From: Gemmobacter fulvus
GTDB taxonomy: Bacteria > Pseudomonadota > Alphaproteobacteria > Rhodobacterales > Rhodobacteraceae
Assembly: GCF_018798885.1 (NCBI RefSeq)
Contig: NZ_CP076361.1
Span: 1,649,501 to 1,713,500, forward strand
DNA length: 64,000 nt
Direction of reading: 5' to 3'
This document shows positions 31,998-50,008 of the stretch, in pieces. A program made the translations under genes and the position numbers. The notes beneath the pieces are model-generated. The model did no database searches. It was given only the letters and a program-made list of their open reading frames with translations, and was not told where the DNA came from. Positions within the stretch are counted from its first letter, which is position 1. Every line of letters starts with the position of its first letter.

Positions 31998-32013
31998 GTA
32001 ACTATCCAGTTAC
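31998..32013. promoter_or_regulatory. TetR-type operator copy A (acyl-CoA dehydrogenase promoter)
   Basis: GTAACTATCCAGTTAC: 6-bp perfect inverted arms GTAACT/AGTTAC around 4 bp. It fits the motif shared by five promoters of this region (GTAACTAAMTGGTTAC) and sits directly upstream of the acyl-CoA dehydrogenase start. Confidence 0.75.
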
Positions 32014-32098
32014 ATAAATCGCGACTCGCGTTTGCGTCAAGTGCGAATCTCGTGTCCTGTGCAAAGACCTTGCACCCGGGCCGCAGATCCGCCTATTA

Positions 32099-32114
32099 TT
32101 CACCAAATGGTTAC
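32099..32114. promoter_or_regulatory. TetR-type operator copy B (aldo/keto reductase promoter)
   Basis: TTCACCAAATGGTTAC: the right half matches the shared motif exactly and the left half is degenerate. It ends 16 bp before the aldo/keto reductase ATG, touching the ribosome-binding region, 101 bp from copy A in the same divergent promoter gap. Confidence 0.65.
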
Positions 32115-32130
32115 TTTAGGGAGGACCACC

Positions 32131-33147
32131 ATGCACCCAGATGACAAGCGCAAGTTCGGCCGCACCGACTTGCACGTGACGCCGTTCGGCTTTGGCACCG
32201 CCCCCGTGGGCAACATCTTCCACGAGATTGACGAGACCACATCGGATGCGATGTTCCAGAACGCATGGGATGCCGGGGTGCGCTATTTCGATACCGCGCC
32301 GATGTATGGGCACGGGCTGTCAGAGCTGCGCACCGGCCAAAGCCTGCGGTGGAAGCAGCGGGACGATTTCGTGCTGTCCTCCAAGGTCGGGCGGCTGCTG
32401 AAACCAGCGCGGCGCGACAGCATCGACTTTGCCCCCTGGACCAATGCCGCGCCCTTCACCATGCAGTTCGATTACAGCTATGATGGCACGATGCGTTCCA
32501 TCGAAGACAGCCTGCAACGGATGGCGCTGGAGCGGCTGGACATCTGCTTCATCCATGACATCGACGTGTTCACACGCGGGGCTGATCAGCCAGAGGTGTT
32601 CCGTCAGGCCATGGACGGCTGTTACAAGGCGCTGGACAGCCTGCGCAGTCAGGGCGTGGTCAAGGCGATCGGCGTCGGCGTGAACGAATGGGAGGTCTGC
32701 CACGCAGCGCTGCAACAGCGCGATTTCGACTGTTTCCTGCTGGCAGGGCGCTACACGCTGCTGGAACAGGATGCGCTGAATGACTTCCTGCCGCTGTGCG
32801 AGGCGCGTGGCGCAGCCGTGGTTGTCGGCGGGGGGTTCAACTCCGGGATTCTGGCAACCGGGGCCAAACCGGGGGCGAAATACAATTACGCCCCTGCGCC
32901 ACAGGCGATTCTGGACAAGGTGGCCCGCATCGAAGCCCTGTGCCGCGCGCATGAGGTGCCGCTGCCCGCCGCAGCCCTGCAATTCGTGGTCGCGCATCCG
33001 GCGGTGCCTTGTTTCATGGCTGGCACGCGCACGGTGGCCCAGCTGCAACAGAACCTCGCCTGGTTCAGCCACCCGATTCCCGCTGCCTTCTGGGCCGATC
33101 TAAAAGCACAGGGCCTGCTGCGCGAGGATGCGCCGGTGCCGGTCTGA
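32131..33147 (+). CDS. Aldo/keto reductase, aldose 1-dehydrogenase type
   Basis: A 338-residue (beta/alpha)8 oxidoreductase. The AKR tetrad is visible: Asp and Tyr in Y-F-D-T-A-P-M-Y-G, Lys in L-S-S-K-V-G-R, and His in C-F-I-H-D-I-D. The extended form (R-K-F-G-R-T-D-L start, F-G-F-G-T-A-P-V-G) resembles D-threo-aldose/L-fucose dehydrogenase and pyridoxal dehydrogenase, so oxidation of a free sugar to its lactone is plausible. The ATG at 32131 follows AGGGAGG. It is transcribed alone, divergently from the acyl-CoA dehydrogenase unit, with operator copy B at its promoter. Confidence 0.88.
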   Translation: MHPDDKRKFGRTDLHVTPFGFGTAPVGNIFHEIDETTSDAMFQNAWDAGVRYFDTAPMYGHGLSELRTGQSLRWKQRDDFVLSSKVGRLLKPARRDSIDFAPWTNAAPFTMQFDYSYDGTMRSIEDSLQRMALERLDICFIHDIDVFTRGADQPEVFRQAMDGCYKALDSLRSQGVVKAIGVGVNEWEVCHAALQQRDFDCFLLAGRYTLLEQDALNDFLPLCEARGAAVVVGGGFNSGILATGAKPGAKYNYAPAPQAILDKVARIEALCRAHEVPLPAAALQFVVAHPAVPCFMAGTRTVAQLQQNLAWFSHPIPAAFWADLKAQGLLREDAPVPV

Positions 33148-33155
33148 CACCTCCC

Positions 33156-33189
33156 GGCCCAAGGCGCGGCGCTGGCTGCGCCTTGGGCC
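33156..33189. terminator. Long hairpin between aldo/keto reductase and glycerate kinase genes
   Basis: A 12-bp perfect stem GGCCCAAGGCGC / GCGCCTTGGGCC, extendable inward by 3 pairs, with a short loop and no T run, in the 48-bp convergent gap. It is probably a shared Rho-aided 3' end. Confidence 0.65.
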
Positions 33190-33195
33190 CGCGCC

Positions 33196-34455
33196 TTAGC
33201 GGATCAGGATTGCGCGAAAATCATTCACATTGGTGCCGGTGGGGCCGGGCACAAACAGATCCCCCAGCACATCAAAGGCCGTCCAGGCATCATTGCCCGC
33301 CAGCAGCGCTGCCGGATCATGCCCCACCGCCCGCAGGCGCGCGGCACTGGTGCCATCGGCAAAGGCACCGGCATTGTCCTCGGATCCGTCGATGCCATCG
33401 GTATCAGCCGCCAGCGCCGCAAACGGCACGCCTTCGGCTGCCAGCGCAAAGGCCAGCAGGAACTCACTGTTCCGCCCCCCCTTGCCCCTGGCCCTGAGCG
33501 TGACCGTCGTCTCACCCCCCGACAGGATCACCACCGGGCGGGTAAAGGGCCGGTTGCGCAGGGCCACCTCGCGCGCAATCGCCGCATGCACCCGTGCGAC
33601 ATCGCGCGCCTCGCCCTCGATGGCATCCGACAGGATCACCGCAGGCAGGCCCATCGCTTCGGCCTGTGCCGCCGCCGCCTCAAGCGACAGCCGGGCCGAG
33701 GCGATGACCCGCACCTCATGCCCGGCAAAGACCGGATCGTCGGGCAGCGGCGGCAGGCCCAGATCACCGGCCAGCCAATCGGCCACGCGCGGTGGCAACG
33801 CGATGCGCCAGGCCGCCGCCATCGCCCGCGCCTGCGCCCGACCCACCGCATCCGGCACGGTCGGGCCGGATGCCACCTGCGCCGGATCGTCGCCGGGCAC
33901 ATCCGACACCACAAGCGACACCACCCGCGCCGGATGGCAGGCCGCCGCCAGCCGCCCGCCCTTGATCTGCGACATCTGCTTGCGGATCGCATTCATCACC
34001 GAAATCGGCGCACCGCTGGCCAGCAGCGCCTGATTCAGCGCCACCTCATCCGCCAGCGTCAGGCCATCGGGCGGGGCGGGCAACAGGGCAGAGCCGCCGC
34101 CGCAGATCAGGGCCACCACCAGATCATCGGGGCCAAGCCCGCGCACCGCCTGCATCAGCGCCGCCGTCGCCGCCAGCCCGGCGGCATCCGGCACCGGATG
34201 CGCCGCCTCCATCACCCGGATGCGGGCGCAGGGCGCGGCATAGCCATAGCGCGTCACCACCACACCCTCCAGCGGCCCCGGCCACAGCTGCTCGAACGCC
34301 GCCGCCAGCTGCGCCGCCCCTTTACCCGCCCCGATCACCACGGTGCGGCCCTTGGGAGGCGCAGGCAGATGCGCGCGCAGGGCAAGGGCCGGATCTGCGG
34401 CGGCAACAGCGGCAGAAAACAGCCCGGTCAACAGACCGCGATCATCAGATGTCAT
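33196..34455 (-). CDS. Glycerate 2-kinase (MOFRL/DUF4147 family)
   Basis: A 419-residue protein of the TtuD/GckA family, which phosphorylates D-glycerate to 2-phosphoglycerate (older annotation: hydroxypyruvate reductase). Features are V-I-G-A-G-K-G near the N-terminus, [15 protein letters not shown], and the C-terminal MOFRL block [10 protein letters not shown] with D-T-D-G-I-D-G-S. It implies that glycerate is an end product of the pathway encoded around it. It is last in the CoA-transferase - enoyl-CoA hydratase - Dabb - kinase unit and overlaps Dabb by 4 nt. Confidence 0.9.
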
Positions 34456-34766: not shown

Positions 34767-34789
34767 GGTCTGTCCTTCCCGACGGGCCC

Positions 34790-35557
34790 TCAATATTCCG
34801 GCGGGCGCTTGTGCCGGTGGGCCGCAAGCCCTTCTTGCAGATCGGGCGATGCGGCGGCAATCCGGCCCGCCAGCGCCTCCAGAACCCGCTCGCGCTCTTC
34901 GCCCTCGGCGGCATTGATCAGCATCTTGGTCAGGCTGGTCGCGGCGGGGCTGCGCGCCAGCACCCGTGCGGCAACCACCTCGGCGGCGGCAAGGCCCGCG
35001 CCTTCGGGCACCACCTGATCCACGATGCCCAGTTGCAGCGCCGCCTCGGCGCTCAGCACCTCGCCGCATAGCGCCATGCGGCGCACGGCCTGTGCTCCGA
35101 ACCGCCGCACCGCGCGTTGAGTGCCGGACCAACCCGGAATGATGCCCAGACCCGGCTCGGGCTGGCCGATCATCACATGGGCCTCGGCGATGCGCAGATC
35201 AGCACAGGCCGCCAGTTCCAGCCCGCCGCCCAGCGTCTGCCCGTTCAGCACCGCGATGACTGGCACCGTCAACCGCGCCAATGCGTCAAAGGCGGCATGG
35301 CCATCGCGCACCCAGTGCTGCCCAAAGGCCTCGGGCGACAGCGCGCTCCAGCCCGCAATGTCACCCCCGGCGCAGAAGGATTTGCCACCTTCCCCGGTCA
35401 CGATCAGCACCCGTGCTGCCGAACGTTCGATCTCGCGGCACAGCGGCAGTAGCGCATCAACCATGGTCGCATCCAGCGCGTTGCGTTTTTCCGGCCGCCG
35501 CAGCACCAGCCGCGCCACGCCATCGCGCAGGGTCAGCACCAGCCGCGGGTCCGTCAT
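34790..35557 (-). CDS. Enoyl-CoA hydratase/isomerase family protein
   Basis: A 255-residue crotonase-fold protein. The oxyanion-hole segments S-F-C-A-G-G-D-I and G-G-G-L-E-L-A-A-C-A-D, and Glu in E-P-G-L-G-I-I-P, are in place. It most likely hydrates an enoyl-CoA, which is consistent with an acyl-CoA dehydrogenase and a CoA-transferase in the same regulon. Other crotonase reactions (isomerase, dehalogenase, hydrolase) cannot be excluded. It overlaps the CoA-transferase gene by 4 nt and precedes Dabb by 23 nt. Confidence 0.9.
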   Translation of the reverse strand: MTDPRLVLTLRDGVARLVLRRPEKRNALDATMVDALLPLCREIERSAARVLIVTGEGGKSFCAGGDIAGWSALSPEAFGQHWVRDGHAAFDALARLTVPVIAVLNGQTLGGGLELAACADLRIAEAHVMIGQPEPGLGIIPGWSGTQRAVRRFGAQAVRRMALCGEVLSAEAALQLGIVDQVVPEGAGLAAAEVVAARVLARSPAATSLTKMLINAAEGEERERVLEALAGRIAAASPDLQEGLAAHRHKRPPEY

Positions 35558-37125
35558 AGCGCCAGCCCCATGACCGCGGGCGCGAACAGCCGCGCCTCCA
35601 TAAGGCGCAGATCGGGCGAAACCCGGATCGGCGTGGCGGCCTGATCCAGAATATCGCGCTGCAGATCAATGCCGGGCGCAATTTCGGTGATCACCAGCCC
35701 CTCTGCATCCAGCCGCATCACGCAGCGTTCGGTCACATAGGTGATATGCTGCCCCTGCGCCCGCGCGCGGCGGCCCGAAAAGCTGATCTGATCGACTTTT
35801 TCCACGATCTTGGCCACCCGGCCTTCGCGGTCGATCACCAGTTGCCCGCCCTCGATCCGCATCTTGGCCCCGGCGTTGAAACTGCCCGAAAAGACGATCT
35901 TGCGCGCTCGGGCCGTGATATCGACAAAGCCGCCCGCGCCCGCCGTGCGATGCGGCGTTGCGGCAAGGCGGCTGACATTGACAGATCCTTCCCGGTCGAT
36001 TTCCAGAAAGGACAGCAGCGAACAGTCAAACCCGCCGGCCTGAAAATAGCTGAACTGATGGGGCGAGGCGACAAAGGCTTCGGCATTGGCGGCACAGCCG
36101 AACTTGAAATCCAGCAAGGGCACGCCGCCGACAGCGCCCTGTTCAATCACCCAGGTCACCGCGCCATGCAGCCCTTCCTCAATCAGGACACGCGGCACAT
36201 TGGCCGAAATGCCAAAGCCGATGTTCACCGCCCAGCCGGTCTGCAATTCCTGCGCCACCCGCCGGGCGATCACCTTACCCACATCCAGCCCCGGCAGGCG
36301 GAACGTGTGCAGCGGGCGGAACAACTCGCCCGAAATCGCCGGATCATATTGTGTGGCCGTGGTCTGCAACTGGTCGGGTGCCTCGACGATCACATCCACC
36401 AGAATGCCGGGCACGCGCACATCATGCGGGCGCAGGCTGCCCAAGGCCGCCACGCGCTTGACCTGCGCAATCACGAGGCCGCCGGAATTGCGGGCCGCCA
36501 GCGCCATTTCCATCGCGCCAAGCGTCGCGCCTTCATGCTCAAAGGTCAGATTGCCGTTTTCATCGGCCGTGGTGGCGCGGATCACCGCAACATCGGGGCG
36601 CAGCGCCGGAAAGTGCAGCCATGTCTCGCCGTCAAACTCCACCCGCCGCACCAGCGGCGATTGCCGCGCCATTGCATTCATGGCGCAGCCCTCCTGTTCG
36701 GGATCGACGAACGTGTCCATGCCGACCTTCGTCAGCACACCGGGACGTTTGGCCGCGCCTTCGCGCAGCATGTCGAACACGATGCCAGAGGGCACATTCC
36801 ACGCCGCCAGATCCTCGTTCAGGATCATCTGCCAGATCAACGGCGGCTCTGCCGCACTGGGCCCCGACGGGTAGGATCCGCCGATGATGCGGGAAAGCAA
36901 GCCGGGCTTTGCGATATGATCCACGCCTTTGGTGCCGAAGAAATCACCCGCTGCGATGGGATGCACAGAGGTCAGACCGCGCGGATGGCCTTCGCTGTCA
37001 AATCGGGCACCAAGTGCCGCCAGAACGGCATCCGGGCAGCACAGGCCCGATGAGGAATTCACCGCGACCACCGCACCATCCTTGATCAGCCGAACGGCTT
37101 CCGCTGCGGTTCTGACCTTCGACAT
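35554..37125 (-). CDS. Family I CoA-transferase, fused alpha/beta (acetate/3-ketoacid or propionate CoA-transferase type)
   Basis: A 523-residue fused enzyme. The N-terminal half carries the first CoA-transferase domain. The second half has V-I-E-Q-G-A-V-G-G, where the Glu is the predicted catalytic residue forming the glutamyl-CoA intermediate. The architecture matches propionate-CoA transferase (Pct)/YdiF. It would activate a free acid by CoA exchange and so start the acyl-CoA branch. The AGGAGAT ribosome-binding site precedes the ATG. It heads the minus-strand unit and has operator copy C 32 bp upstream. Confidence 0.9.
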   Translation of the reverse strand: MSKVRTAAEAVRLIKDGAVVAVNSSSGLCCPDAVLAALGARFDSEGHPRGLTSVHPIAAGDFFGTKGVDHIAKPGLLSRIIGGSYPSGPSAAEPPLIWQMILNEDLAAWNVPSGIVFDMLREGAAKRPGVLTKVGMDTFVDPEQEGCAMNAMARQSPLVRRVEFDGETWLHFPALRPDVAVIRATTADENGNLTFEHEGATLGAMEMALAARNSGGLVIAQVKRVAALGSLRPHDVRVPGILVDVIVEAPDQLQTTATQYDPAISGELFRPLHTFRLPGLDVGKVIARRVAQELQTGWAVNIGFGISANVPRVLIEEGLHGAVTWVIEQGAVGGVPLLDFKFGCAANAEAFVASPHQFSYFQAGGFDCSLLSFLEIDREGSVNVSRLAATPHRTAGAGGFVDITARARKIVFSGSFNAGAKMRIEGGQLVIDREGRVAKIVEKVDQISFSGRRARAQGQHITYVTERCVMRLDAEGLVITEIAPGIDLQRDILDQAATPIRVSPDLRLMEARLFAPAVMGLAL

Positions 37126-37157: not shown

Positions 37158-37173
37158 GTAACTAACTGGTTAT
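37158..37173. promoter_or_regulatory. TetR-type operator copy C (CoA-transferase / aldo-keto reductase promoters)
   Basis: GTAACTAACTGGTTAT, matching the shared motif at 15-16 positions, in the 136-bp gap between the divergent CoA-transferase and second aldo/keto reductase genes. It can control both. Confidence 0.75.
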
Positions 37174-37261
37174 AAGAATAAGCACGGCAGCGCCCCGCCC
37201 GCAAGGGCCATTTTCAGGTGCCCTTCTGCCGCCGATCCCTTTCCACGCTCCGAGGACAGCC

Positions 37262-38080
37262 ATGAATATCTGCTTTCAGAACACCTATCAGCGCGGCTTT
37301 GGCACCTACCCCCTGAAGGGGGATGCCCTGAAGGACGCCATCGCCACGGCGCTGGACGCGGGATACCGCGCCTTCGACACCGCCCAGATGTATGGAAACG
37401 AGGCCGAAACCGGCGCCGCTCTGGCCGAAGGCCCGGTGCCGCGCGCCGATCTGTGCCTCACGACCAAGGTGCATCCCGATCAGTTTGGCGAGGCGGCCTT
37501 CCTGCCTTCGGTCGAGGCCAGCCTGACGGCCCTGCGCACCGATTATGTCGACATCCTGCTGCTGCATTGGCCACCAATCGGCGGCGACATCGCGCCGTCG
37601 TTGCGGTTGCTGCAAAAGGCACGCGATCTGGGACTCGCGCGGCATATCGGCGTGTCGAACTACACGGCGCAGATGATGCGCGATGCCAAAGCCATCGTCG
37701 ATGCGCCACTGGTGACCAATCAGGTGGAGTTTCACCCGCTGCTCAATCAGGACCGCCTGCTGCAGGCGGCGGCGGAAACCGGCATCCCGCTGTCATCCTA
37801 TTCGTCGGTCGCACGCGGCGAGGTGTTCAAATACCCGCTCTTTGCCGAGATCGGCGCGGGCTATGGCAAATCCGCCGCACAGGTGGTGCTGCGCTGGATC
37901 CTGCAAAAGGGGGTTTCGCTGAACACCATGTCCACCAAACCCGAAAACATCCGCGCCAATTTTGACCTGATGGATTTCACCCTGTCCTCGGTCGACATGG
38001 CCCGGATCGACGCGATGACGCAGACCGGCTACCGCATTGTCTCCAAAGGGCTTGTGCCCTGGGCCCCCGATTGGGACTGA
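37262..38080 (+). CDS. Aldo/keto reductase (2,5-diketogluconate reductase-like)
   Basis: A 272-residue AKR of the short 2,5-didehydrogluconate reductase class. Asp and Tyr occur in [11 protein letters not shown], Lys in L-T-T-K-V-H, and His in L-L-L-H-W-P; I-G-V-S-N-Y and N-Q-V-E-F-H-P are standard family motifs. It is NADPH-dependent by family and probably reduces a keto-sugar or aldehyde. Divergent from the CoA-transferase unit and sharing operator copy C, it is part of the regulon. It converges on the GMC gene. Confidence 0.9.
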
Positions 38081-38083
38081 CAG

Positions 38084-38122: not shown

Positions 38123-39721
38123 TCAGCGATTGCCGCGGATCATGTCAGCCGCCCTTTCCGCAATCATGATCGTCGGCGCATTGGTGTTCGATCCGACAAG
38201 GCTGGGCATGACAGAGCTGTCGCACAGGCGCAGCCCATCCACCCCATGCACCCGCAGTTGCGGATCGACCACCGCCATCGCATCCCGCCCCATCTTGCAG
38301 GTGCAGGTCGGATGATACGAGGTGCGGCCATATTGCCGGGCATAGGCTTCATAATCGGCCTGCGTGCGCACCGAGGCATCGGGAAAGCGCAGTGTGCGGA
38401 TGTATTTCTGCAAGGCGGGCTGGCTGAAAATCTCGCGGCTGATCTTCACGCCCTCCACCGAGCAGCGCCGATCATCGGGGTGGGACAGGAAGTTCGGGTC
38501 CACCACCGGCTGCGCCCGTGGATCGGCCGACCGCAGCGTCACCGAGCCCCGCGATTTGGGCCGCAATGTATAGGAGTTGAGCGTGATCCCCGAAGACCCT
38601 TTCGGCACGCTGGGCACCCCCGCCTCGGCCCCGGCCCCGGCCAGAAAGTGGAATTGCAGATCCGGGCAGGGCTGGCTGCGATCCGCATACCAGAAGGCCC
38701 CGCCCTCCACCACGTTGGACGTGACCGGCCCTGCATTGAACAACGCATATTGCAGCCCGGCCCACAGCATCCAGTGCGGTTTGTTGTATTTGTCCAGACT
38801 GTCATGCCCGGTCAGTTCGGCCACGATATCAATGCCGAAATGGTCCTGCAGGTTCTGGCCCACGCCCGGCAGATCCTGCACCACCTCAAGCCCGTGGCTG
38901 CGCAGATGATCCGCCGGACCGATGCCGGACAATTGCAAAAGCTTGGGCGTGCCGATGGCGCCCGAGGTGACGATGACCTCACACTCTGCCTGCACCCGGT
39001 GCGGCGTGGCACCGATGGCATAATCCACCCCGGTTGCGCGCCGCCCCTCGAACACCACACGCAACACCAGCGCCCCGGTGATCAGCGTCAGGTTCGGGCG
39101 TTTCAGCGCGGGGCGCAGATAACCCACCGCTGCCGAACAGCGCCGGTTGCGCAGGGTGGTGGTCTGATAAGGGCCGGCCCCGTCCTGAACCGGGCCGTTG
39201 AAATCGGGGTTATAGGGCATCCCGATCTGCTGGCAGCTTTGCACGAAGGCGCGGGTCAGCGGCTGCGGGGCGGGGATGTTCGATACGCCCAGCGGGCCTT
39301 CGGTGCCATGCCATTCCCCCGCCAGCGTGGTATTGCCTTCAGAGCGCAAAAAGTAGCGCTGCACCTCGGCAAAGCTCCAGCCCTCTGCGCCCTCTTCAAC
39401 CCAGCGGTCATAATCCGACGGATGGCCACGGGTGAAAATCTCGGCATTGATCGACGAGCCGCCGCCCAGAACCCTGGCCTGCGCATAGGGAATTTCGCGG
39501 TTGTTGGCGTGGCGCTGCGGGGCGGTGGTCAAGCCCCAGGTCATCGGACCGGTGGTCATCTTGGCAAAGCCGACCGGCATATGGATCAGCGGATGGGTAT
39601 CGCGCCCGCCCGCCTCGATCAGGCAGACCCGGGTGGCGGGATCTTCCGACAACCGCGCCGCCAGAACGCAGCCAGCCGACCCGCCGCCCACGATCACATA
39701 ATCAAACGCCGCTGCCATCAT
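38123..39721 (-). CDS. GMC-family FAD oxidoreductase (choline dehydrogenase-like)
   Basis: A 532-residue flavoprotein. The N-terminal ADP-binding fold is [12 protein letters not shown], the FAD attachment region L-G-G-G-S-S-I-N, and the C-terminal catalytic block [11 protein letters not shown] with N-x-N-A-P-T. There is no signal peptide. It oxidises a primary or secondary alcohol to the aldehyde or ketone. It is close to the choline/alcohol dehydrogenase group, but choline is unlikely without bet genes. It is the last gene of the ABC operon, 25 nt after the aldehyde dehydrogenase, which would take its product. Confidence 0.9.
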
Positions 39722-39746
39722 ACGATCCCCCCTTCCGCAAGCCCGG

Positions 39747-41237: not shown

Positions 41238-41317
41238 CTGGGCCTCCGCCCGGTCTAGGGCAGTTGAAAGGTGTGAGGGAAAGGCAGACGCCGCAGCGCC
41301 CGCACGCATTGGCCGGA

Positions 41318-42349
41318 TCAGACCAGAAGGATCTGGGTTTTCAGATCGGCGGGACGGCTGGACAGGGATTCAAACGCCTCCTGGATCCGGCCGAGCGGGA
41401 AACTCGCCCCGGTAAAGGCCCCGGTCTGAAAGCGGCCATGCGCCAGCAGGGTCAGCGCATCCTGCATATCCTCGCCCATCCCGGCGACCGATCCTTTCAG
41501 GCTCGTCTCCTCCAGCACGGTGCGCAGGATGTTGACAGGCACCGCCTCGCCAGGTCCGGTCAGGCCAAAGAACGCCACATGGCCGCCCTTGCGGATCAGT
41601 TCGAACGCCTGCGCGTAAAGATGGGCATTGCCGACGCTTTCGATCACCAGATCCGCGCCACGCCCGCCGGTCATGGCCAGAACCTGCGCCTTTAGCGCCG
41701 CGGGATCCGAGATCGCCGCATCCGCGCCAGTGGCCAGCGCCATGCGGCAACGATCCTCTGACAGATCGGCCACAATGATCGGGGCCGCCCCGACAAGGCG
41801 CATCATCTGCACATGCAGATTGCCCACCGGCCCGGCCCCGAACACCACCACCGATTGCCCGAACCCGGCGCGGGCCTTGCGCGCCGCGCGCACCACGCAG
41901 GCGACGGGTTCCGTCAGCGCCAGCACCGCATCGGGCACATCCTGCGGCGCTTCGATCACCAGACGGGCGGGAAGCGCCACATATTCGGCAAAGGCCCCGT
42001 CGCGTCCGATACCAACCTGCGTCATCGCCGGGCAGTTCAGCACCTCGTTGCGGCGGCACCAGTAGCAGCTGCCGCAACCGATGTTGATATCGGCCACCAC
42101 CCGCGCACCCGGCGCAACCGAGGTGACATTGGCCCCGACTGCCGCCACGGTGCCACAGAATTCATGGCCGGGGATCAGCGGCAGGCGATCCGCCGCATAA
42201 TGGCCGTTGAACATATGCACATCCGTGCCACAGATCCCGGTGCGCGCCACCCGGATCAGCGCATCCTCCGGCCCGATTGCGGGCAGATCCACCTCGCGCA
42301 GCGCAAACTGCCGGGGCGCCACCAGAACCGCCGCCTGCATCTTCTGCAT
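41318..42349 (-). CDS. Zinc-dependent alcohol dehydrogenase (MDR family)
   Basis: A 343-residue medium-chain dehydrogenase. The catalytic-zinc site is C-G-T-D-V-H plus G-H-E, the structural zinc site is the four-Cys lobe G-C-G-S-C-Y-W-C...C, and the Rossmann loop is G-A-G-P-V-G. Sugar/polyol and threonine dehydrogenases share this layout, so a sugar alcohol is a reasonable substrate. Two starts compete: 42349 with an AGGGA site (used here) and 42364, which overlaps the permease stop by 4 nt. It is co-transcribed with the ABC importer. Confidence 0.9.
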   Translation of the reverse strand: MQKMQAAVLVAPRQFALREVDLPAIGPEDALIRVARTGICGTDVHMFNGHYAADRLPLIPGHEFCGTVAAVGANVTSVAPGARVVADINIGCGSCYWCRRNEVLNCPAMTQVGIGRDGAFAEYVALPARLVIEAPQDVPDAVLALTEPVACVVRAARKARAGFGQSVVVFGAGPVGNLHVQMMRLVGAAPIIVADLSEDRCRMALATGADAAISDPAALKAQVLAMTGGRGADLVIESVGNAHLYAQAFELIRKGGHVAFFGLTGPGEAVPVNILRTVLEETSLKGSVAGMGEDMQDALTLLAHGRFQTGAFTGASFPLGRIQEAFESLSSRPADLKTQILLV

Positions 42350-42360
42350 GGCCCGTCCCT

Positions 42361-43302
42361 TCATTTCACAGTGCGCAGTTTGGCGCGGTCAATCGTCAGG
42401 GCGATGGCGGCGATCAGCACGATTCCGAACACCATCTGCTGTTGCGTCGCGTCGATCTCGAAATACAGCATCGAGGCGCGGATCACTGCCACGATCAGGG
42501 TGCCGATCAGCGTGTTCAGCACACCGCCCACCCCGCCCGTCAGCGGCGTGCCACCGACCAGCACCGCCACGATGGCCGGCAGCAGAAACCCGTTCGCAAT
42601 CGTCGGGGCCCCGCCCGAAAGCTTGACCGCGAACAGCAGGCCCGCAACCGCCGCCAAAGCCCCGGAAATGGCAAAGGCGAGGATCTTGTAGCGCGCCACG
42701 TTCAACCCCGAGGCCGCCGCCGCCTGTTCGCCCGCGCCCACCGCCTTCAGCGCCCGGCCAAGCGTGGTGCGGCGTTCGATGAACAGGCACAGCGCCAGCA
42801 GCAGCGCCGCGATGAACAGCTCGTTCGGGATGCTGCCGGTATGGCCGATCATCCAGCCGAATGTCTCGTTGCGCTGCGCCGCATCCATGTTCAGCGCCCG
42901 CTGCCCCGACAGCAACTGCGCCACCGAAAAGGCGATGCCACCGACGGCGAGCGTGGAGATGAACGACGGCACCAGCAGCTTTGTAGTGACATAGCCCGAC
43001 ACCATGCCCAGCACGAACCCCGCGCCGATGCACAGCACCGCAACCCCGGCCCCGAGCGAGGCGAGATAGATCGAGGCGATGACCGTGACCATATTCGCCA
43101 TGGATTGCGCCGACAGGTCGATCCCGCCGATATAGATGGCGAAGGTCAGACCCAGCGCCATGATGAACAGCGGCACGATATCGCCCGCAAGGCTCATCAG
43201 ATTGGCGGGTTTCAGAAACCCCGGATCGGTGATGCCCACGATGGTGACCAGCACCAGCAGGGTGATCCAGGGCAAATGCGGTTTAAGACGCTGAAAATCC
43301 AT
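42361..43302 (-). CDS. Sugar ABC transporter permease (RbsC type)
   Basis: A 313-residue integral membrane protein with about 8-10 hydrophobic segments. It has the family features G-G-I-D-L-S near residue 60 and the cytoplasmic coupling region R-R-T-T-L-G-R-A-L-K-A-V-G. It is one of two homologous permeases in this operon, so the importer is probably a heterodimer. It imports the sugar or polyol delivered by the periplasmic binding protein. It starts 8 nt after the ATPase gene. Confidence 0.93.
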   Translation of the reverse strand: MDFQRLKPHLPWITLLVLVTIVGITDPGFLKPANLMSLAGDIVPLFIMALGLTFAIYIGGIDLSAQSMANMVTVIASIYLASLGAGVAVLCIGAGFVLGMVSGYVTTKLLVPSFISTLAVGGIAFSVAQLLSGQRALNMDAAQRNETFGWMIGHTGSIPNELFIAALLLALCLFIERRTTLGRALKAVGAGEQAAAASGLNVARYKILAFAISGALAAVAGLLFAVKLSGGAPTIANGFLLPAIVAVLVGGTPLTGGVGGVLNTLIGTLIVAVIRASMLYFEIDATQQQMVFGIVLIAAIALTIDRAKLRTVK

Positions 43303-43310
43303 GTCCTGCC

Positions 43311-44816
43311 TCAGATCATGTAATGCAAAAGATCGTAGAGTGTCGGCTTTGCCCCGGGCACGCAGTCGAACCGCTGCCGGATCTCGCCGTCTTTCACCAC
43401 GATGATGCTGTGTGACAGGCCGATCGCCTCTTCCAGCGTGTCGGCCACCAGAACGATGCCCACACCCGCCGCGCTCATGTCGCGGATCATGTCATAGACA
43501 TCTTCCTTCGCGCCGATATCCAGACCGCGCGTCGGATGATCCAGCAGCATGATGTCCGATCCACCCGAGCGCCACTTGGCCAGCACCACCTTCTGCTGAT
43601 TGCCGCCCGACAGATTGCCGCAATCGGCAAATTCGGAATGCGCCTTGATCGACAGCTTGCGGATCCAGTCACGCGCCAGCGCCCGTTCGCCCGCAATGCG
43701 CAGCACGCCCGCCGTCGCATGTTTGCCCATCTGCGACAGGGTCATGTTTTCATAGACATTCATCCCGGCAACGATGCCCTCCACCTTGCGTTCGCGCGGC
43801 ACATACCCCACGCCCAGCGCAACGGCAGTCTGCGGTGAAAAGCGCCGGATCACCTGCCCTTTCAGCGCCACCTCGCCCGAGGTCGGCGTCAGCATGCCAT
43901 AAAGGGTGCGCAAGATCGCCTCGCGCCCCGACCCTTCGGTGCCGACCAGGCACAACACCTCGCCGGGATGCAGCGCCAGCGAAATGTCGCGGATGCGCCC
44001 TGGCAGGCTGACACCCGTCAAGGTGGCCAGCGTGCGGCCCGCATCATAGGGCAGCTGCCGGTGTTCGCGGTAATATTCCTTGTCGACGTTGCGCCCCACC
44101 ATCTTGTGCTGGATCGCCTCGACCTGTGCCGCCCCCCGCTGCACCACATCCACCACCTGCCCGTCCTTCATCACATAGATGCGGTCGGACAGGTCCATCA
44201 CCTCGTCCATGCGATGCGACACGAAGATGAAGGAGGCACGCGAGGTCAGCTCCCGCACCAGCTTGAACAGAAGCTGCACCTCTTCCTTGCTCAGCACCGA
44301 GGTCGGCTCGTCCAGCAGGATGACCAGATCGCCCTCCACCCGCTCCTCCAGTGTCAGCACCTTGGCCAGTTCGACCAGTTGCCGCTGCGCGAAGGACAAA
44401 TGCGAGGTGACGGTGGCCGGATCTATGTCCAGCTTGACCTTGGCAAGCTGCGCCCGCGCGGCGGTGGCCATCGCCGCCCAGTTGATCACGCCAAAGCGCA
44501 CGAACTGCTGCTCGTAACCCAGAAAGATGTTTTCCATCACGGTCAGGTTGGCAATCAGCGACTGCTCCTGAAACACCATGCCGATGCCCTTTTCCATCGC
44601 CTGCCGCGGGTTGGAAAAGCGGACGGTCTTGCCGTCAATCTGGATCTGGCCGCCATCGGGTTGATAGGCGCCATAGATCACCTTCATCAGCGTGGATTTT
44701 CCCGCGCCGTTTTCGCCCACCAGACCCACGATCTCGCCACGCTTGATGTGGAAATCCACGGCCTTGAGCGCATGGACGCCGGGGAATTTCTTGTCGACGG
44801 CTTTCAGTTCATACAT
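43311..44816 (-). CDS. Sugar ABC transporter ATP-binding protein (RbsA type, duplicated)
   Basis: A 501-residue ATPase with two nucleotide-binding domains. The first has the full Walker A G-E-N-G-A-G-K-S-T and signature L-S-F-A-Q-R-Q. The second has a degenerate Walker A (G-T-E-G-S-G-R-E) but a normal L-S-G-G-N-Q-Q-K signature. This asymmetry is usual for the RbsA/MglA/XylG carbohydrate class. It energises import through the two RbsC-type permeases flanking it. It lies 10 nt after the upstream permease. Confidence 0.95.
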   Translation of the reverse strand: MYELKAVDKKFPGVHALKAVDFHIKRGEIVGLVGENGAGKSTLMKVIYGAYQPDGGQIQIDGKTVRFSNPRQAMEKGIGMVFQEQSLIANLTVMENIFLGYEQQFVRFGVINWAAMATAARAQLAKVKLDIDPATVTSHLSFAQRQLVELAKVLTLEERVEGDLVILLDEPTSVLSKEEVQLLFKLVRELTSRASFIFVSHRMDEVMDLSDRIYVMKDGQVVDVVQRGAAQVEAIQHKMVGRNVDKEYYREHRQLPYDAGRTLATLTGVSLPGRIRDISLALHPGEVLCLVGTEGSGREAILRTLYGMLTPTSGEVALKGQVIRRFSPQTAVALGVGYVPRERKVEGIVAGMNVYENMTLSQMGKHATAGVLRIAGERALARDWIRKLSIKAHSEFADCGNLSGGNQQKVVLAKWRSGGSDIMLLDHPTRGLDIGAKEDVYDMIRDMSAAGVGIVLVADTLEEAIGLSHSIIVVKDGEIRQRFDCVPGAKPTLYDLLHYMI

Positions 44817-44826
44817 CTCCGTCCCC

Positions 44827-45792
44827 TCACTTCACCACCGAGACAGCCCGGCGGTCGGTTGACAGCACCACAGCCACGATCACCAGCAGGCCCAGCACGC
44901 CGTCTTGCAGGAAATCCGGCAGGCCGATCACCACCATGCCATTGTTGATCACGCCGACGATCAGCACCCCGACCAGCGCGTTCCACACGCCGCCGATGCC
45001 GCCCCACAGGGCCACGCCGCCGACCACGACCGAGGTGATCGACACGAACATGAAGTTTGCCCCCGTCACCGATTCCGCCTGACCGATGCGGCCCACGACA
45101 AGGATCGCTGCGATGGCATAGAACACCCCGGCCAGCGCAAAGCCGGTGACCCGGACCCGCTTCACATTCAGACCCGAAGCATGGGCCAGATCTTCGCCAC
45201 CGCCCACGGCATAGAAGTTGCGCCCCAATGTGGTGTGCGACTGAATGAACCAGGCCAGCAGCAGGAACGCCACTGCCACATAGACCATGATCGGAAAGCC
45301 CAGCCAGCGCACCGTCAGCAGGCCCCGGAAGGCGGGATCGCTGATCTTAACGATGTCACCGCCGGTCAGCAGGATCGCCGCCCCGGTGCCGACAAAGCCC
45401 ATCGCAAGGCTCGCCATGAACGAAGGGATGCGCAGCTTCACATGGATCAGGCCGTTCAGCAGGCCGATCAGCCCGCCGACCAGCAGCACCAGCGGCATGG
45501 CAAGCCAACCCATATCGCCCAGCGCGCCACCGAATTTGACGAAGGCAAAGGAAAAGATCACGGCCGTCAGCGAGATCACCCCCTCCATCGACAGGTCGAT
45601 GGACCCCATGATGATGATGAATGTCACCCCCACCGCGACCATCAGCGCCGGGGCCGAGGCGATGGCGATGCGGGCAAAGTTGCGGACCGAAAAGAAGGTC
45701 GGGTTCAGCAGGGTGAAAAAGATCACCAGCGCCATCAGCACCAGAAGCGGTGCCCATTTGATCAAGGTTTCACGCGAGATGTTCCGCGTCAC
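44827..45792 (-). CDS. Sugar ABC transporter permease (RbsC type)
   Basis: A 321-residue permease with about 8-10 transmembrane segments and the motif G-S-I-D-L-S-M-E-G. A coupling loop S-H-T-T-L-G-R-N-F-Y-A-V-G-G is also present. It is the first of the two permeases and lies 72 nt downstream of the binding-protein gene, a common position for processing or partial attenuation between the abundant binding protein and the membrane parts. Confidence 0.93.
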   Translation of the reverse strand: MTRNISRETLIKWAPLLVLMALVIFFTLLNPTFFSVRNFARIAIASAPALMVAVGVTFIIIMGSIDLSMEGVISLTAVIFSFAFVKFGGALGDMGWLAMPLVLLVGGLIGLLNGLIHVKLRIPSFMASLAMGFVGTGAAILLTGGDIVKISDPAFRGLLTVRWLGFPIMVYVAVAFLLLAWFIQSHTTLGRNFYAVGGGEDLAHASGLNVKRVRVTGFALAGVFYAIAAILVVGRIGQAESVTGANFMFVSITSVVVGGVALWGGIGGVWNALVGVLIVGVINNGMVVIGLPDFLQDGVLGLLVIVAVVLSTDRRAVSVVK

Positions 45793-45864
45793 GTCAGGCC
45801 CCCCTTTTTGCCCACATGGCCGTGCATGGCGCGGCGACCCCGGACGGGCCGCCGCAAGCTTGCA

Positions 45865-46977
45865 TCATTTGTATTGAATCTGCCCGTTCGACGGGCCCCA
45901 GAAGTCGGTCCAGTCATAGCTGGGCACCGCATCCTGGAACTTGGCCTTGAACTCGGCAGCGTCCTTGGCGGTGACGAGGATGGTCGGGCCATAGAACTCC
46001 CGATGCTCCTGCGGCTCTTCCGAAGGTTTGAACGTGCCGATGGCCGCGTGATAGGCCAGCGCCGCCGAAATGCCGCCGCCCCAATGCGGGTTGGTGAACA
46101 CGGTCGCCAGCAGTTGCCCGTCCATCACCATCTGCACCGCTTCGGGGTTGCCGTCATAGGCGACGATCGGCATGCCCTCGATGCCTTCGGCGCGCAGCGC
46201 CTCGATCACGCCATAGGCGATGTTGTCATTGGCGCAATGCACACCTTTGATCCTGTCGCCATAGCGGGTCAGGAACGAGGCCATCAGCTCTGCGCCCTTC
46301 TGGGTATCCCAGTCGGCGGGCTGGGCATCCAGCAGTTCGATATTGGGGAAGTCCTTCAGCGCGTTCATCAGGCCGTTCAGACGTTCGACCGCCGGATTGT
46401 TCGCGCCGATACCGCCCAGATGCACGATCCCGCCTTCGCCGCCCATCGCCTCGAACAGGATCCGCGCGGTTTCTTCGGCGGGTTTCTCGTCGCTCCAGGT
46501 CATGTGGCTGACGTAATTGTCGCCGAAATCCCAGGGGTGCAGGTCATCCGTCTTGTTCCAGATGGTCGAGATATAGCCGCCCGCCGCCGCAACCGCCTCG
46601 ACCACCGGGCGGGCATTCGGACTGTCATTCGCATCGCAGGCAATGGCGCAATTGCCATTGTTCTTGGCCAGGAAGGCCTTGATATCCGCCAGAGATTTTT
46701 CCGACGATCCTTCGTTGATCAGGCTGACCAGAAAATCCTTCGGCTTGCCAAGCGATTCCACGAAGGCCTCGCCGCCAGACACGACCGAGTTCCAGTAGGC
46801 CGAGGCGCGGTCACGATAGCTCCAGGCCAGCGCCGGATCGGTCAGCGCGGCATGGGCCGCCCCGCGCCCGAATACGGCCGGCGCGGCCAGGGCGCCGACA
46901 CCCGCCGCGCTGGCCAGCAGGAAGTTGCGGCGGTTGATCGTTTCCCGCGCGATGAAGTCCTTGATGAATGTCGACAT
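45865..46977 (-). CDS. Sugar ABC transporter substrate-binding protein, Tat-type signal
   Basis: A 370-residue periplasmic binding protein of the ribose/galactose class (Peripla_BP_4). The N-terminus has I-N-R-R-N-F-L-L-A-S-A-A-G, a twin-arginine signal with cleavage near A-H-A-A (about residue 43). Folded-export targeting is unusual but not rare for such proteins. Later motifs are C-A-N-D-N-I-A and V-A-Y-D-G-N. The ATG at 46977 has GGAGG upstream. It is the first gene of a seven-gene operon (binding protein, permease, ATPase, permease, ADH, ALDH, GMC) with operator copy D upstream. Confidence 0.92.
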   Translation of the reverse strand: MSTFIKDFIARETINRRNFLLASAAGVGALAAPAVFGRGAAHAALTDPALAWSYRDRASAYWNSVVSGGEAFVESLGKPKDFLVSLINEGSSEKSLADIKAFLAKNNGNCAIACDANDSPNARPVVEAVAAAGGYISTIWNKTDDLHPWDFGDNYVSHMTWSDEKPAEETARILFEAMGGEGGIVHLGGIGANNPAVERLNGLMNALKDFPNIELLDAQPADWDTQKGAELMASFLTRYGDRIKGVHCANDNIAYGVIEALRAEGIEGMPIVAYDGNPEAVQMVMDGQLLATVFTNPHWGGGISAALAYHAAIGTFKPSEEPQEHREFYGPTILVTAKDAAEFKAKFQDAVPSYDWTDFWGPSNGQIQYK

Positions 46978-47088
46978 GGCTTTCCTCCCTTTACATGCAG
47001 GTTCGTTGCAGGTGGCCCGAAGGGCTGTACGCAGGGCCGGTTTCTCCGCGCCCCGTGCTTGCCACCGCACCACCTTCCACCCATTTAA

Positions 47089-47104
47089 TGCACTAACTGG
47101 TTAC
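47089..47104. promoter_or_regulatory. TetR-type operator copy D (ABC operon / tetR promoters)
   Basis: TGCACTAACTGGTTAC, sharing the ACTAACTGGTTA core with copy C, in the 272-bp gap between the divergent binding-protein gene and the TetR regulator gene. The position suits control of the transporter operon and autoregulation. Confidence 0.7.
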
Positions 47105-47237
47105 TTCTGTGCGCCCCCATGAGTCAAGAGATTTCCTGCGCCTCGTTTCACAATGGCAGGCCGATTGGACCGCAATGCGCTTTGACCTTGCCCCCCCGGA
47201 ACGGTTAAGAAGGGCCAGCGCCACGTCGCGCAGCTTT

Positions 47238-47242
47238 GGAGG
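47238..47242 (+). promoter_or_regulatory. Ribosome-binding site fixing a TTG start for the TetR gene
   Basis: GGAGG, 7 nt before TTG at 47250. No comparable site precedes the in-frame ATGs at 47109 or 47175, and the residues they would add lack family similarity. Confidence 0.65.
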
Positions 47243-47249
47243 ACAGGCC

Positions 47250-47915
47250 TTGACCGACGCCAGTGACGCGCCAGCACCCCCCGCGCCGAAACCGCGCATC
47301 CGCGACGCCGAAGCGACGCGCGCGCGCATCCTTGATGCCGCGAAGAAAGAGTTTGCAAAGAACGGTCTGGGCGGGGCCCGCGTCGATGTGATCGCGGAAA
47401 AGGCCAAGGCCAACAAGCGGATGATCTACCGCTATTTCAACAGCAAGGAGGGGCTGTTCCAGACCGTGCTGGAAGATGCCTATCTTGATATCCGCACCGC
47501 CGAACAGAAGCTCAATCTCGATCATCTGGAGCCGCGCGAGGCGCTGGAAAAGATGGTGCGCTTCACTTGGGATTATTACCTGAAGAACCCGGAATTCATC
47601 ACACTGGTGAACAGCGAAAACCTGCACCGCGCCAAACATCTGAAGAAATCAGAAGTCATCAAGGTGGCCAGCCGCAAGTTCGTCGACCGTATGTCGTCGC
47701 TGCTGAACCGGGGGGTCGCAGCAGGGGTGTTTCGCGCCGATATTGATCCGGTGCAACTGAACATCACCATTGCCGCCATCGGCTATTATTACCTGACCAA
47801 CCGCTTTACCGGCTCGATCATCTTTGACCGCGATCTGATGGCGAAAGAGGCGCTGGACGAACGGCTGCGGTTCAACATCGGCACGATCATGCGCATGGTC
47901 TGTGTGGCGCCCTGA
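47250..47915 (+). CDS. TetR/AcrR-family transcriptional regulator
   Basis: A 221-residue repressor-type protein, read from a TTG start with a good SD. After a Pro/Ala-rich lead, residues ~20-65 form the TetR helix-turn-helix (A-R-I-L-D-A-A, F-A-K-N-G-L-G-G-A-R-V-D-V-I-A, K-R-M-I-Y-R-Y-F-N-S-K-E). A ligand-binding/dimerisation domain with N-P-E-F-I-x-L-x-x-S-E-N follows. The recurring palindrome at 31998, 32099, 37158, 47089 and 49993 is the obvious candidate operator, including one at its own promoter. The ligand would be the substrate or a pathway intermediate. It converges on the GlcG-like gene. Confidence 0.9.
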   Translation: MTDASDAPAPPAPKPRIRDAEATRARILDAAKKEFAKNGLGGARVDVIAEKAKANKRMIYRYFNSKEGLFQTVLEDAYLDIRTAEQKLNLDHLEPREALEKMVRFTWDYYLKNPEFITLVNSENLHRAKHLKKSEVIKVASRKFVDRMSSLLNRGVAAGVFRADIDPVQLNITIAAIGYYYLTNRFTGSIIFDRDLMAKEALDERLRFNIGTIMRMVCVAP

Positions 47916-47921
47916 CGGGCA

Positions 47922-48350
47922 TCACAGCTCCCAGCCCAGACCTTCGGCGCGCAGGGCCAGCTCGGCGCAGGCGATATCCTCGAAATCCTGCGCCCCCGAC
48001 ACGCCGATCCCGCCGACCACGCTGCCCTCATGGGTGATTGGCAGGCCGCCGCCCCAGACCATCAGCCGCGCCCGGTTGGAAAAGCCCAGCTTCAACGCGG
48101 GGCTGCTGTGCATGCGCTCTGAAAAGGCGGCGGTGGCGCGGCGCATGGTGGCCGCCGTAAAGGCCTTGTCCTGCGCGAACTCCAGAATGGGCGGCGTTGC
48201 ATGGTCCATCCGCGCGGCGGCAAGCACCTGCCCGTGCGGATCCACGACGCAGACCGCAACGGACCAGCCATTGCGCTTCGCCTCGGCCACGGCGCCCTGC
48301 ACCAGCCGCAACGCGGTCTCAGAGGAAATCATCGGTCGGGTCACGATCAT
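47922..48350 (-). CDS. GlcG/HbpS-family protein
   Basis: A 142-residue GlcG/HbpS/PduO-C-type protein: A-V-C-V-V-D-x-H-G-Q-V-L-A-A-x-R-M-D near residue 35 and G-G-L-P-I plus G-G-I-G-V-S-G at the end. Members bind heme or cobalamin, or are found with glycolate and diol operons; the role is generally unclear. It has no signal peptide, so it is cytosolic. It is the last gene of the VOC - MDR - GlcG minus-strand unit, 45 bp after the MDR gene, and part of the operator-bearing regulon. Confidence 0.82.
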   Translation of the reverse strand: MIVTRPMISSETALRLVQGAVAEAKRNGWSVAVCVVDPHGQVLAAARMDHATPPILEFAQDKAFTAATMRRATAAFSERMHSSPALKLGFSNRARLMVWGGGLPITHEGSVVGGIGVSGAQDFEDIACAELALRAEGLGWEL

Positions 48351-48395
48351 CGGAAAGCTCCATATCTTGTGGGCAAGGCGGTGCGGCGCAAAGGG

Positions 48396-49412
48396 TCATC
48401 CCTGCGCCGTCCAGTCGAGAACAATGAACGGCGCGGCGATCCGCCGGGCCATGATATCGGCATAAAGCTGGGCCGGATCCTCTGGCAGCGCCACATGCAC
48501 CAGCCCGGCCAGAGGAATCCGCCCCTGGGCCAGCCAATCCATCGCGCGGGCAAACCCGCCCAGGATGCTATGCGGCGCGTTGTTGTAGCCGTCCAGCAGG
48601 CTCTCCCACTGAAAGCCGCGGCCCTGAACCGGCAGTTCCCACTCCCAGCCAGAGCGCAGCGTCACCAGATTGAAGAACACCGGGCCGAGCAGGTCATGCG
48701 CCGAAAGGTCGGTCAGCTTGCGCCAGGGCACCCCGACCAGAACCACCTCGCCGCGTGGGCGGACCATCTGGCAGCCCTCCCGCACGGCGGCCTCATGGCC
48801 GGAACAGTCGACCACCAGGGCAACCTGTCCGCGCAGCGCCGGATCCTCCAGCGGCATTGCCGCCCGGCAATCCGTCAGCCCGCTGTGCCCGGCCTGTGCG
48901 CGGCGTAGCGGATCCGGGTCCACCAGCGTCACGCGATAGCCGCCGATCCGAAACAGATGCGCCGCCAGCAACCCAACTGGCCCTGCGCCGGTGATCACGA
49001 CTGCATCCCCCGGCCGGGCCTGTGTGGTCATCAGGGTGGACATCGACACCCCCATCAACCGCGCCACCACCGCCATCTGCGGATCAAGGCCCTGCGGCAG
49101 CGGCAGCGTGTGCTGCGCCAGATGGGTCTGCGTGGCGCGATGCGCGCCCATGGCAAAGCGCAGCATCCCCGGCGTGATCCCCCGGACAGCGGCCCCCACC
49201 GCCGTCACCTCGAAAACCGCCGCATAGCCGGGCCGGATCGGGAAGGTCTCGCCATTGGCCCAGCCGATTTCGGTGCCCTGGCTGATCAGGGTGCAGAGTG
49301 TGCGGCCACGGATCTCGTCGGGCTGCAACAGCGCATCGGTATAGGTGGCAAGGGTGAATGTCTGTTTGGCGGGAAACAGGATTTCAGTCGGCAGAGTCGC
49401 TCCACTGTGCAT
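48396..49412 (-). CDS. MDR-family (alcohol-dehydrogenase-like) oxidoreductase lacking the usual zinc ligands
   Basis: A 338-residue medium-chain dehydrogenase-type protein with a Rossmann loop I-T-G-A-G-P-V-G-L. The N-terminal domain carries S-Q-G-T-E-I-G where zinc enzymes have C-G-T/S-D, and P-G-Y-A in place of P-G-H-E; no structural four-Cys lobe is present. It resembles the BchC-like/zinc-less MDR group. It is likely an NAD(P)-dependent dehydrogenase of a pathway intermediate. Between VOC (3 nt upstream) and GlcG, it is probably co-transcribed under operator copy E. Confidence 0.82.
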   Translation of the reverse strand: MHSGATLPTEILFPAKQTFTLATYTDALLQPDEIRGRTLCTLISQGTEIGWANGETFPIRPGYAAVFEVTAVGAAVRGITPGMLRFAMGAHRATQTHLAQHTLPLPQGLDPQMAVVARLMGVSMSTLMTTQARPGDAVVITGAGPVGLLAAHLFRIGGYRVTLVDPDPLRRAQAGHSGLTDCRAAMPLEDPALRGQVALVVDCSGHEAAVREGCQMVRPRGEVVLVGVPWRKLTDLSAHDLLGPVFFNLVTLRSGWEWELPVQGRGFQWESLLDGYNNAPHSILGGFARAMDWLAQGRIPLAGLVHVALPEDPAQLYADIMARRIAAPFIVLDWTAQG

Positions 49413-49415
49413 GTG

Positions 49416-49934
49416 TCACACCCCGGTCTTCGGCGACCATTGCGCAGGTGCCCCTGCGCGTTCCGCGCCCAGCGGCCCGTCCATGCTGACAATCTCCAGA
49501 AACTGCCCCCAGGGCGCCTTCAGATAACACCATGTCAGGCCCGCCATCGGCCCGGCCTCCACATGGTTCGGCCCATCCAGCACCTCGACCCCGGCGGCGC
49601 GCAGGCGGTCTGCGGCCACCAGACAATCCTCCACCTGAAAGGCCAGATGAAAGCCGCCCGGTTCGCTGTTGCGTTTCAGCGGGGCGTCGGGGTCCGGTTC
49701 GCCGGAATACTGAAACAGCTCCAGATTGGTGCCATTGCCGACGCGCAGCACCGTGATGTCCTCGATCCGCCTATCCCCCGGCACCCCCAGCTTGCGGATC
49801 ATGTCAGCATCCGTGAGGTCAAGCCGCCCGGTCGACAGGCAGACGACCGCGCCGAACATCGTCTCGAAAAACCGCACGGCCTGCGCCATGTCGGGCACGG
49901 TGAGGCCAATATGCTGAAGGCCAAAAACGGTCAT
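49416..49934 (-). CDS. VOC (glyoxalase/dioxygenase-fold) protein
   Basis: A 172-residue protein with two beta-alpha-beta-beta-beta units of the VOC superfamily. The first begins L-Q-H-I-G-L-T-V-P-D-M and the second G-G-F-H-L-A-F-Q-V-E-D. His in each and Glu in N-L-E-L-F and F-L-E-I-V are candidate metal ligands. It could be a lactoylglutathione-lyase-like isomerase, epimerase or ring-cleavage enzyme. It is the first gene of the VOC - MDR - GlcG unit, with operator copy E 58 bp upstream. Confidence 0.85.
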   Translation of the reverse strand: MTVFGLQHIGLTVPDMAQAVRFFETMFGAVVCLSTGRLDLTDADMIRKLGVPGDRRIEDITVLRVGNGTNLELFQYSGEPDPDAPLKRNSEPGGFHLAFQVEDCLVAADRLRAAGVEVLDGPNHVEAGPMAGLTWCYLKAPWGQFLEIVSMDGPLGAERAGAPAQWSPKTGV

Positions 49935-49992
49935 CTTGCCTGTTCTCCCTATGTGCGGCGCGGCCCCTCTGGCCCGCCGGATCGCCCGATAT

Positions 49993-50008
49993 GTAACTAA
50001 ATGGTTAC
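49993..50008. promoter_or_regulatory. TetR-type operator copy E (VOC operon promoter)
   Basis: GTAACTAAATGGTTAC, the best-conserved copy; with flanks ATGTAAC...GTTACAT the inverted repeat extends to 20 bp. It lies between the VOC unit (minus) and the YcaO unit (plus). Control of the latter is possible but not implied by function. Confidence 0.75.

Follow-up and report, generated by a model that had tools for sequence, protein, structure and literature searches.

The window analysed here, a stretch of 64,000 nt from the 4.68 Mb genome of Gemmobacter fulvus, carries a catabolic cluster of 20 genes whose promoter gaps share a 16-bp palindrome, together with a TetR-family regulator gene (tetR) that very probably governs them. 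On the minus strand, genes for an acyl-CoA dehydrogenase, a short-chain dehydrogenase/reductase (SDR), a DUF993 protein and a xylose-isomerase-like protein (AP_endonuc_2) make up one operon by adjacency (28047..31990), as do those for a CoA-transferase and an enoyl-CoA hydratase (34790..37125) and an HbpS-like, an alcohol dehydrogenase (ADH)-like and a glyoxalase-superfamily gene (47922..49934). The same strand holds a glycerate 2-kinase-like (MOFRL) gene (33196..34455), of uncertain membership in the CoA-transferase operon. It also holds the sugar-binding protein (45865..47073) and the permease, ATPase and permease (42361..45792) of a CUT2-type ATP-binding cassette (ABC) transporter, along with a GMC oxidoreductase, an aldehyde dehydrogenase and a zinc alcohol dehydrogenase (38123..42364) that are assigned to the transporter operon by adjacency. 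Two aldo/keto reductase genes, AKR1 (32131..33147) and AKR2 (37262..38080), and tetR itself (47250..47915) lie on the plus strand. The operon boundaries are predicted ones. The regulator gene has a TTG start and a GGAGGA ribosome site (47238-47243), its product belongs to the TetR family by PF00440 (49.4 bits, cut-off 24) and by PF17938, TetR_C_29 (144.8 bits, cut-off 26.2), and no other regulator gene was recognised among those searched from 28047 to 49934.

A sequence-only reading of this stretch had listed 16-mers at 31998, 32099, 37158, 47089 and 49993 and had placed them all in promoter gaps. All five are present with the right coordinates and letters, and each falls in an intergenic gap between called genes. 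The symmetric consensus GTAACYANNTRGTTAC fits them better than the one-sided consensus of that reading, which at up to three mismatches matches exactly these five places in the window (six matches, as 31998 is found on both strands); in the shuffled window 0.03 matches are expected, with a maximum of one. Operator 5 (49993..50008, minus strand) is a perfect copy of the consensus and is assigned to the glyoxalase/ADH-like/HbpS operon, with TTGACA at 50038-50043; a YcaO gene lies on its other side. Operator 1 (31998..32013; GTAACTGGATAGTTAC on the minus strand) precedes the acyl-CoA dehydrogenase operon and has a -35-like TTGACG at 32035-32040 and a putative -10 that overlaps its first bases. 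Operator 2 (32099..32114, plus strand), before AKR1, overlaps the last base of a -10-like TATTAT (32094-32099), with TTGCAC (32070-32075) 18 bp before the latter. Operator 3 (37158..37173, minus strand; ATAACCAGTTAGTTAC) is the predicted site of the CoA-transferase operon in a gap common to AKR2 and has a -35-like TTGCGG at 37199-37204. Operator 4 (47089..47104, minus strand) is a conserved lopsided variant, GTAACCAGTTAGTGCA, before the sugar-ABC-transporter operon; TTGACT (47122-47127) lies 17 bp upstream, and the called GTG start of that operon (47073) follows 15 bp after the end of the site. The proposal that every unit has its own site holds for most of them, except that AKR2 uses the common CoA-transferase site and that the glycerate-kinase gene follows a site-free gap of 334 bp.

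When the whole genome is scanned with GTAACYANNTRGTTAC at up to two mismatches, only five places appear, and four of them are the window sites 49993, 31998, 37158 and 32099. The remaining site, 47089, has three mismatches to the consensus, as have 53 places in the genome in all (58 at up to three mismatches), so it is not distinguishable by score, and conservation alone validates this degenerate site. A control pattern, the consensus read backward, is commoner than the real one at up to three mismatches (at least 200 places versus 58), and raw three-mismatch counts therefore mean little; at up to one mismatch the control has one place and the real pattern three. What counts is thus low-mismatch sites and conservation. 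The fifth genomic place, on contig C5 (C5:26489; L264:4869-5505), is a palindrome with two mismatches, GTAAGTAAGTAATTAC, that adjoins a different TetR gene (TetR_C_6), with an HlyD-type gene nearby, and it is probably the operator of that neighbouring regulator. As the sole extra place at this threshold, it leaves no further candidate member of the regulon outside the cluster in the own genome.

Conservation was followed by footprinting 200 bp upstream plus 20 bp of each orthologue (at least 55% identity, complete upstream, identical sequences taken once) in 22 blocks including the window, 17 of the 20 loci of one set and 83 further loci; 80 loci were kept of 188 relatives found (Rhodobacteraceae, Ensifer, Shinella, Mesorhizobium, Ochrobactrum, Labrys, Kaistia, Gluconobacter and others). 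The expectation that sites should recur before orthologous units is borne out at up to two mismatches, with a site upstream of 26 of 26 acyl-CoA dehydrogenase, 22 of 23 AKR1, 29 of 32 CoA-transferase and 25 of 25 AKR2 genes, while mononucleotide shuffles never exceed 0.1 per gene. Such a site is missing before AKR1 in L228 and before the CoA-transferase in G052, L129 (G253) and L227. A second site copy lies close to AKR2 in 10 of the 25 AKR2 upstreams sampled. At the same threshold, sites stand before 15/75 genes of the ALDH2 group, 5/15 glyoxalase genes (window included), 1/12 HbpS genes, 6/95 tetR genes and 7/74 transporter genes; at up to three mismatches the transporter count rises to 69 of 74 distinct regions versus 1.45 in mononucleotide shuffles. 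Nine internal genes (AP2, DUF993, ECH, MOFRL, ADH, PermA, ABC, PermB and ADH2) have no site at up to two mismatches, and SDR has one in 3/26 and GMC in 2/81; in the three SDR cases (L113, L118, L124) no acyl-CoA dehydrogenase match lies between site and SDR. On pSymA of Sinorhizobium meliloti, where TetR is 79% identical, sites are kept before the acyl-CoA dehydrogenase (one mismatch) and the CoA-transferase (two mismatches). The same predicted operator thus stands before several orthologous units across genera, as in a multi-operon TetR regulon.

The layout of this putative regulon varies, as some relatives carry extra operators: before ALDH2 (G189, G166, G295, L157, L158), in the tetR gap (L185, L197) and near a second GMC gene (G356, L235). 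We also observe that in S. meliloti ml28 pSymA (L234:23108-25331) the GMC and aldo/keto reductase genes of the cluster are separated by an ISRm17-type transposase and a ParDE-type toxin-antitoxin pair, and that in Roseateles sp. XES5 (L235:1-977) the acyl-CoA dehydrogenase operon is followed by genes for an electron-transfer flavoprotein, which fits an active acyl-CoA dehydrogenase.

The distribution of the site among genomes points in the same direction. In a sample of 394 genomes of the family, nearly one per genus, 25 carry a TetR orthologue with 59% identity or more (the own genome and two partial genes are counted). The distribution of tetR is patchy, as ten genomes of the same genus have no orthologue, their best matches having E-values of 1e-10 to 2e-8. 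A site with at most one mismatch is present in 67 of the 394 genomes: in 23 of the 25 with an orthologue (not G052 and G254) versus 44 of the 369 without (Fisher p ~1e-17). Two or more such sites occur in 17/25 and 5/369, respectively. The 44 genomes without an orthologue hold 49 sites, of which four lie inside the cluster (G190, G253) and 22 (L130, L131, L133-L152) are near no cluster gene above 50% identity. A CoA-transferase of at least 69% identity is found in 32 genomes (one, G186, cut by a contig end), and a site at up to two mismatches precedes it in 23 of the 24 with tetR (G052 has three mismatches) versus one of the eight without (p ~2e-5). In none of these eight genomes does a TetR match exceed 40% identity, and three of them (G268, G135, G172) have no site before the CoA-transferase (five or more mismatches). 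The absence or degeneration of sites there in six of the eight may be seen as a set of natural knock-outs and supports a link between site and regulator. Paralogous TetRs of 40-50% identity have no site at up to three mismatches at seven of the eight loci checked. In two genomes, site-bearing units and tetR are on different contigs far from contig ends: tetR is on C6 and the catabolic units on C18 in G151, whereas in G152 tetR and the transporter are on C9 and the site-bearing units on C6. Sites also occur on another contig than tetR in G356 and G012, where a plain contig break could explain the arrangement. One TetR match (G024:C33; L018, L102) contains an in-frame TAG and has a second, broken copy about 13 kb away, and these are apparently decaying duplicates.

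Several observations weigh against the presumed dependence of the sites on this regulator. The upstream counts are not independent, since close relatives are included and the acyl-CoA dehydrogenase/AKR1 and CoA-transferase/AKR2 gaps are counted twice, and the inspection covered 26 of the 49 sites in orthologue-less genomes. Among the tetR-less genomes, G090, G105 and G183 retain degenerate three-mismatch remnants before the CoA-transferase, G190 keeps its site there, and G253, in which the CoA-transferase gap is split between contigs, carries strong sites in other parts of the cluster; the contigs of the last two end inside transporter genes, with tetR expected beyond, so that the gene may be missing from the assembly. 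Conversely, G254 (TetR 59%) has no site at up to three mismatches near tetR and no cluster beyond a glycerate-kinase gene, while G052 has both cluster and TetR and sites at two to three mismatches only. Sites with two mismatches also accompany more distant regulators: they lie near tetR in G127 (52% TetR), which does not have the cluster layout, and one occurs with a 41% paralogue (L019). With the exceptions of G190 and G253 (sites, no tetR found) and G254 (tetR, no site), the presence of the putative operator tracks the presence of the regulator.

Could the palindrome then be something other than the operator of this TetR? Its recurrence is hardly credible as chance or as a mobile repeat: the motif is short, and sites of at most one mismatch do turn up in the 44 regulator-less genomes, but the window has five places against 0.03 expected, the nine internal genes have none at up to two mismatches, the flanks differ while the site keeps a similar promoter position in other genera, and conservation across orders contradicts this reading. 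That another regulator, encoded elsewhere, binds the sites and tetR is a mere neighbour is improbable, even though degenerate sites persist in three tetR-less genomes and strong ones in two, because sites and tetR co-occur across genera, the CoA-transferase sites are lost or degenerate in six of the eight tetR-less genomes with that gene and no other regulator gene is recognised in the searched part of the cluster. Improbable, too, is an activating or dual role of TetR in place of plain repression. In its favour, a few TetR-family proteins do activate, and in the AKR2 and ALDH2 groups most sites have no TTGA/TTGC element 10-32 bp before them (8/10 and 14/20, respectively). Against it, before the acyl-CoA dehydrogenase, AKR1 and CoA-transferase genes such an element lies mostly 20-27 bp ahead of the operator, and the -10 region directly precedes or overlaps it; these sites and that of the transporter are thus on or just past the -10, where a bound protein blocks polymerase, which makes steric repression likely.

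The claim of a single TetR regulon spanning six catabolic units is thereby upheld by conservation, by co-occurrence with tetR and by the site-bearing units on other contigs, and we consider it very likely, on comparative sequence evidence, that the TetR encoded at 47250 is the dedicated local repressor of the cluster, acting through five operators on six units. We infer TetR binding, repression rather than activation, and an inducer as parts of the following model. Without inducer, a TetR dimer (or a pair of dimers) would occupy GTAACYANNTRGTTAC at the five operators and, being bound on or shortly downstream of the -10, would block RNA polymerase sterically. The CUT2 transporter would import the substrate, and the substrate or an early product would bind TetR_C_29 and free TetR from DNA. 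Release would turn on the acyl-CoA dehydrogenase/SDR/DUF993/isomerase operon, AKR1, the CoA-transferase/hydratase operon, AKR2, the transporter/ADH/aldehyde dehydrogenase/GMC operon and the glyoxalase/ADH/HbpS operon.

Whether tetR also represses itself, as in textbook TetR systems, is doubtful. The predicted site in the gap beside tetR does exist (47089), and a site at up to three mismatches lies within 200 bp in 67 of 95 tetR upstreams, which speaks for autoregulation. The gene, however, appears to have a separate promoter, TTTGAC-N17-TTAAGA (47181..47209, plus strand; TTTGAC at 47181-47186), which starts 69 bp 5' of the start codon, and exact TTTGAC recurs in 49/95 tetR upstreams. Site 47089 has its first base 161 bp 5' of the tetR start and lies about 75 bp beyond this likely promoter, a distance that leaves autoregulation from it unsupported.

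The operator at 47089 is better understood as that of the transporter. It is a lopsided variant with GTGCR in place of GTTAC, and this form recurs at up to two mismatches in 72 of 74 transporter upstreams, preceded by a TTGAC element at 17 bp in 52, at 16 bp in 17 and at 28 bp in one, with no such element in two; TTA follows the site in 56 of the 72. Searching with the symmetric pattern, we find that the best site begins with GTAAC in 60 of the 74 upstreams; its other end is GTGCG or GTGCA in 55 of the 60 and GTTAC in two. The constancy of the lopsided form across orders argues for function. Our guess is that it is a weaker operator which leaves basal uptake: with a deviant half-site, a little transporter would probably always be made, so that the inducer can enter.

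A related cassette appears to have solved its regulation differently. A second CoA-transferase group, of 59-64% identity, is found in 47 genomes, and the TetR palindrome is absent before the CoA-transferase (five or more mismatches) in all ten loci fetched (L245-L254). These 20-kb loci instead all contain TGGAACGTTCCA at up to one mismatch, a count made without a shuffle control; it is exact and within 200 bp before the CoA-transferase in five of them and some 1 kb upstream of that gene in the remaining five, and most loci have two copies 22-34 bp apart. In the one locus that was extended (G081; L263:1246-2342), there is a LacI-family gene downstream, and one more copy of TGGAACGTTCCA sits between this gene and the next. 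This looks like a regulator swap between related catabolic cassettes, with LacI as the presumed binder.

These features can be combined into a wider, tentative picture, to which we give somewhat less than even credence. The half-deviant transporter operator (GTAACYANNTRGTGCR, kept across genera) and the symmetric enzyme operators would form a built-in hierarchy in which uptake is primed or derepressed first; the enzymes would constitute an undescribed route that oxidises a polyol or sugar-like compound, activates it as a CoA thioester and cleaves it with DUF993; and the sister cassette would place the same kinds of enzyme under a LacI-type repressor and another palindrome. Relatives of solved structure do not pin down the substrate (the binding protein is closest to 2rjo, at 267 bits, and DUF993 matches 4dnh only), and the literature searched gave no answer to it either. 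The conserved lopsided operator offers a natural case for the study of graded repression. The regulon itself is a concrete, testable one for an alphaproteobacterial cluster that is widespread (Rhodobacteraceae, Sinorhizobium pSymA, Ensifer, Shinella, Mesorhizobium, Gluconobacter), and its operator also connects units located on separate contigs (G151, G152), which helps to define the pathway.

Beyond the cluster, the window contains at 50123-55173 a YcaO-domain gene followed by two frames that match nothing in Pfam (about 51012-52664 and 52661-53236) and by a gene with a BTAD domain, possibly an unusual peptide- or protein-modification locus.

In the literature searched, judged by title and abstract start among the best matches listed (the best 12 of 43 in one case), no description of the present regulon was found, and no paper of the library searched names DUF993; a search by S. 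meliloti locus tags was empty, a weak result since the tags were guesses, the pSymA 1021 record being unannotated over the stretch. The best NCBIfam match of this TetR is RutR, the Escherichia coli TetR repressor of pyrimidine use, whose core CCAnnTGG resembles the YAnnTR core of the present palindrome. The protein nevertheless scores 61.2 bits against a cut-off of 368 for the RutR equivalog (TIGR03613), and it differs from RutR in its TetR_C_29 C-terminal domain and in its target genes. RutR binds a palindrome of about 16 bp at several promoters, according to the excerpted text of PMC10891134, as is predicted here. On the metabolic side, the excerpt of PMC6365646 describes deoxyribonate catabolism in Klebsiella michiganensis as a proposed sugar-acid pathway with acyl-CoA intermediates, a CoA-transferase and a glycerate kinase. 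It also lists a CoA-synthetase, a beta-hydroxyacyl-CoA dehydrogenase and a thiolase, and in that excerpt an acyl-CoA dehydrogenase, DUF993, a GMC enzyme and a CUT2 transporter are not named, so that the likeness is one of analogy only (PMC6365646). Similar in organisation are the TetR regulons of Proteobacteria inferred by comparative genomics, e.g. LiuQ, FadP and PsrA, in which the predicted sites of one TetR stand at several degradation units and were followed from taxon to taxon (excerpted text of PMC5343134). The present system shares this plan, with targets that mix a sugar-type transporter, alcohol and aldehyde oxidation and CoA-thioester enzymes. The multi-operon TetR regulon is thus a known kind, and the one described here is well supported as a case of conventional on/off control.

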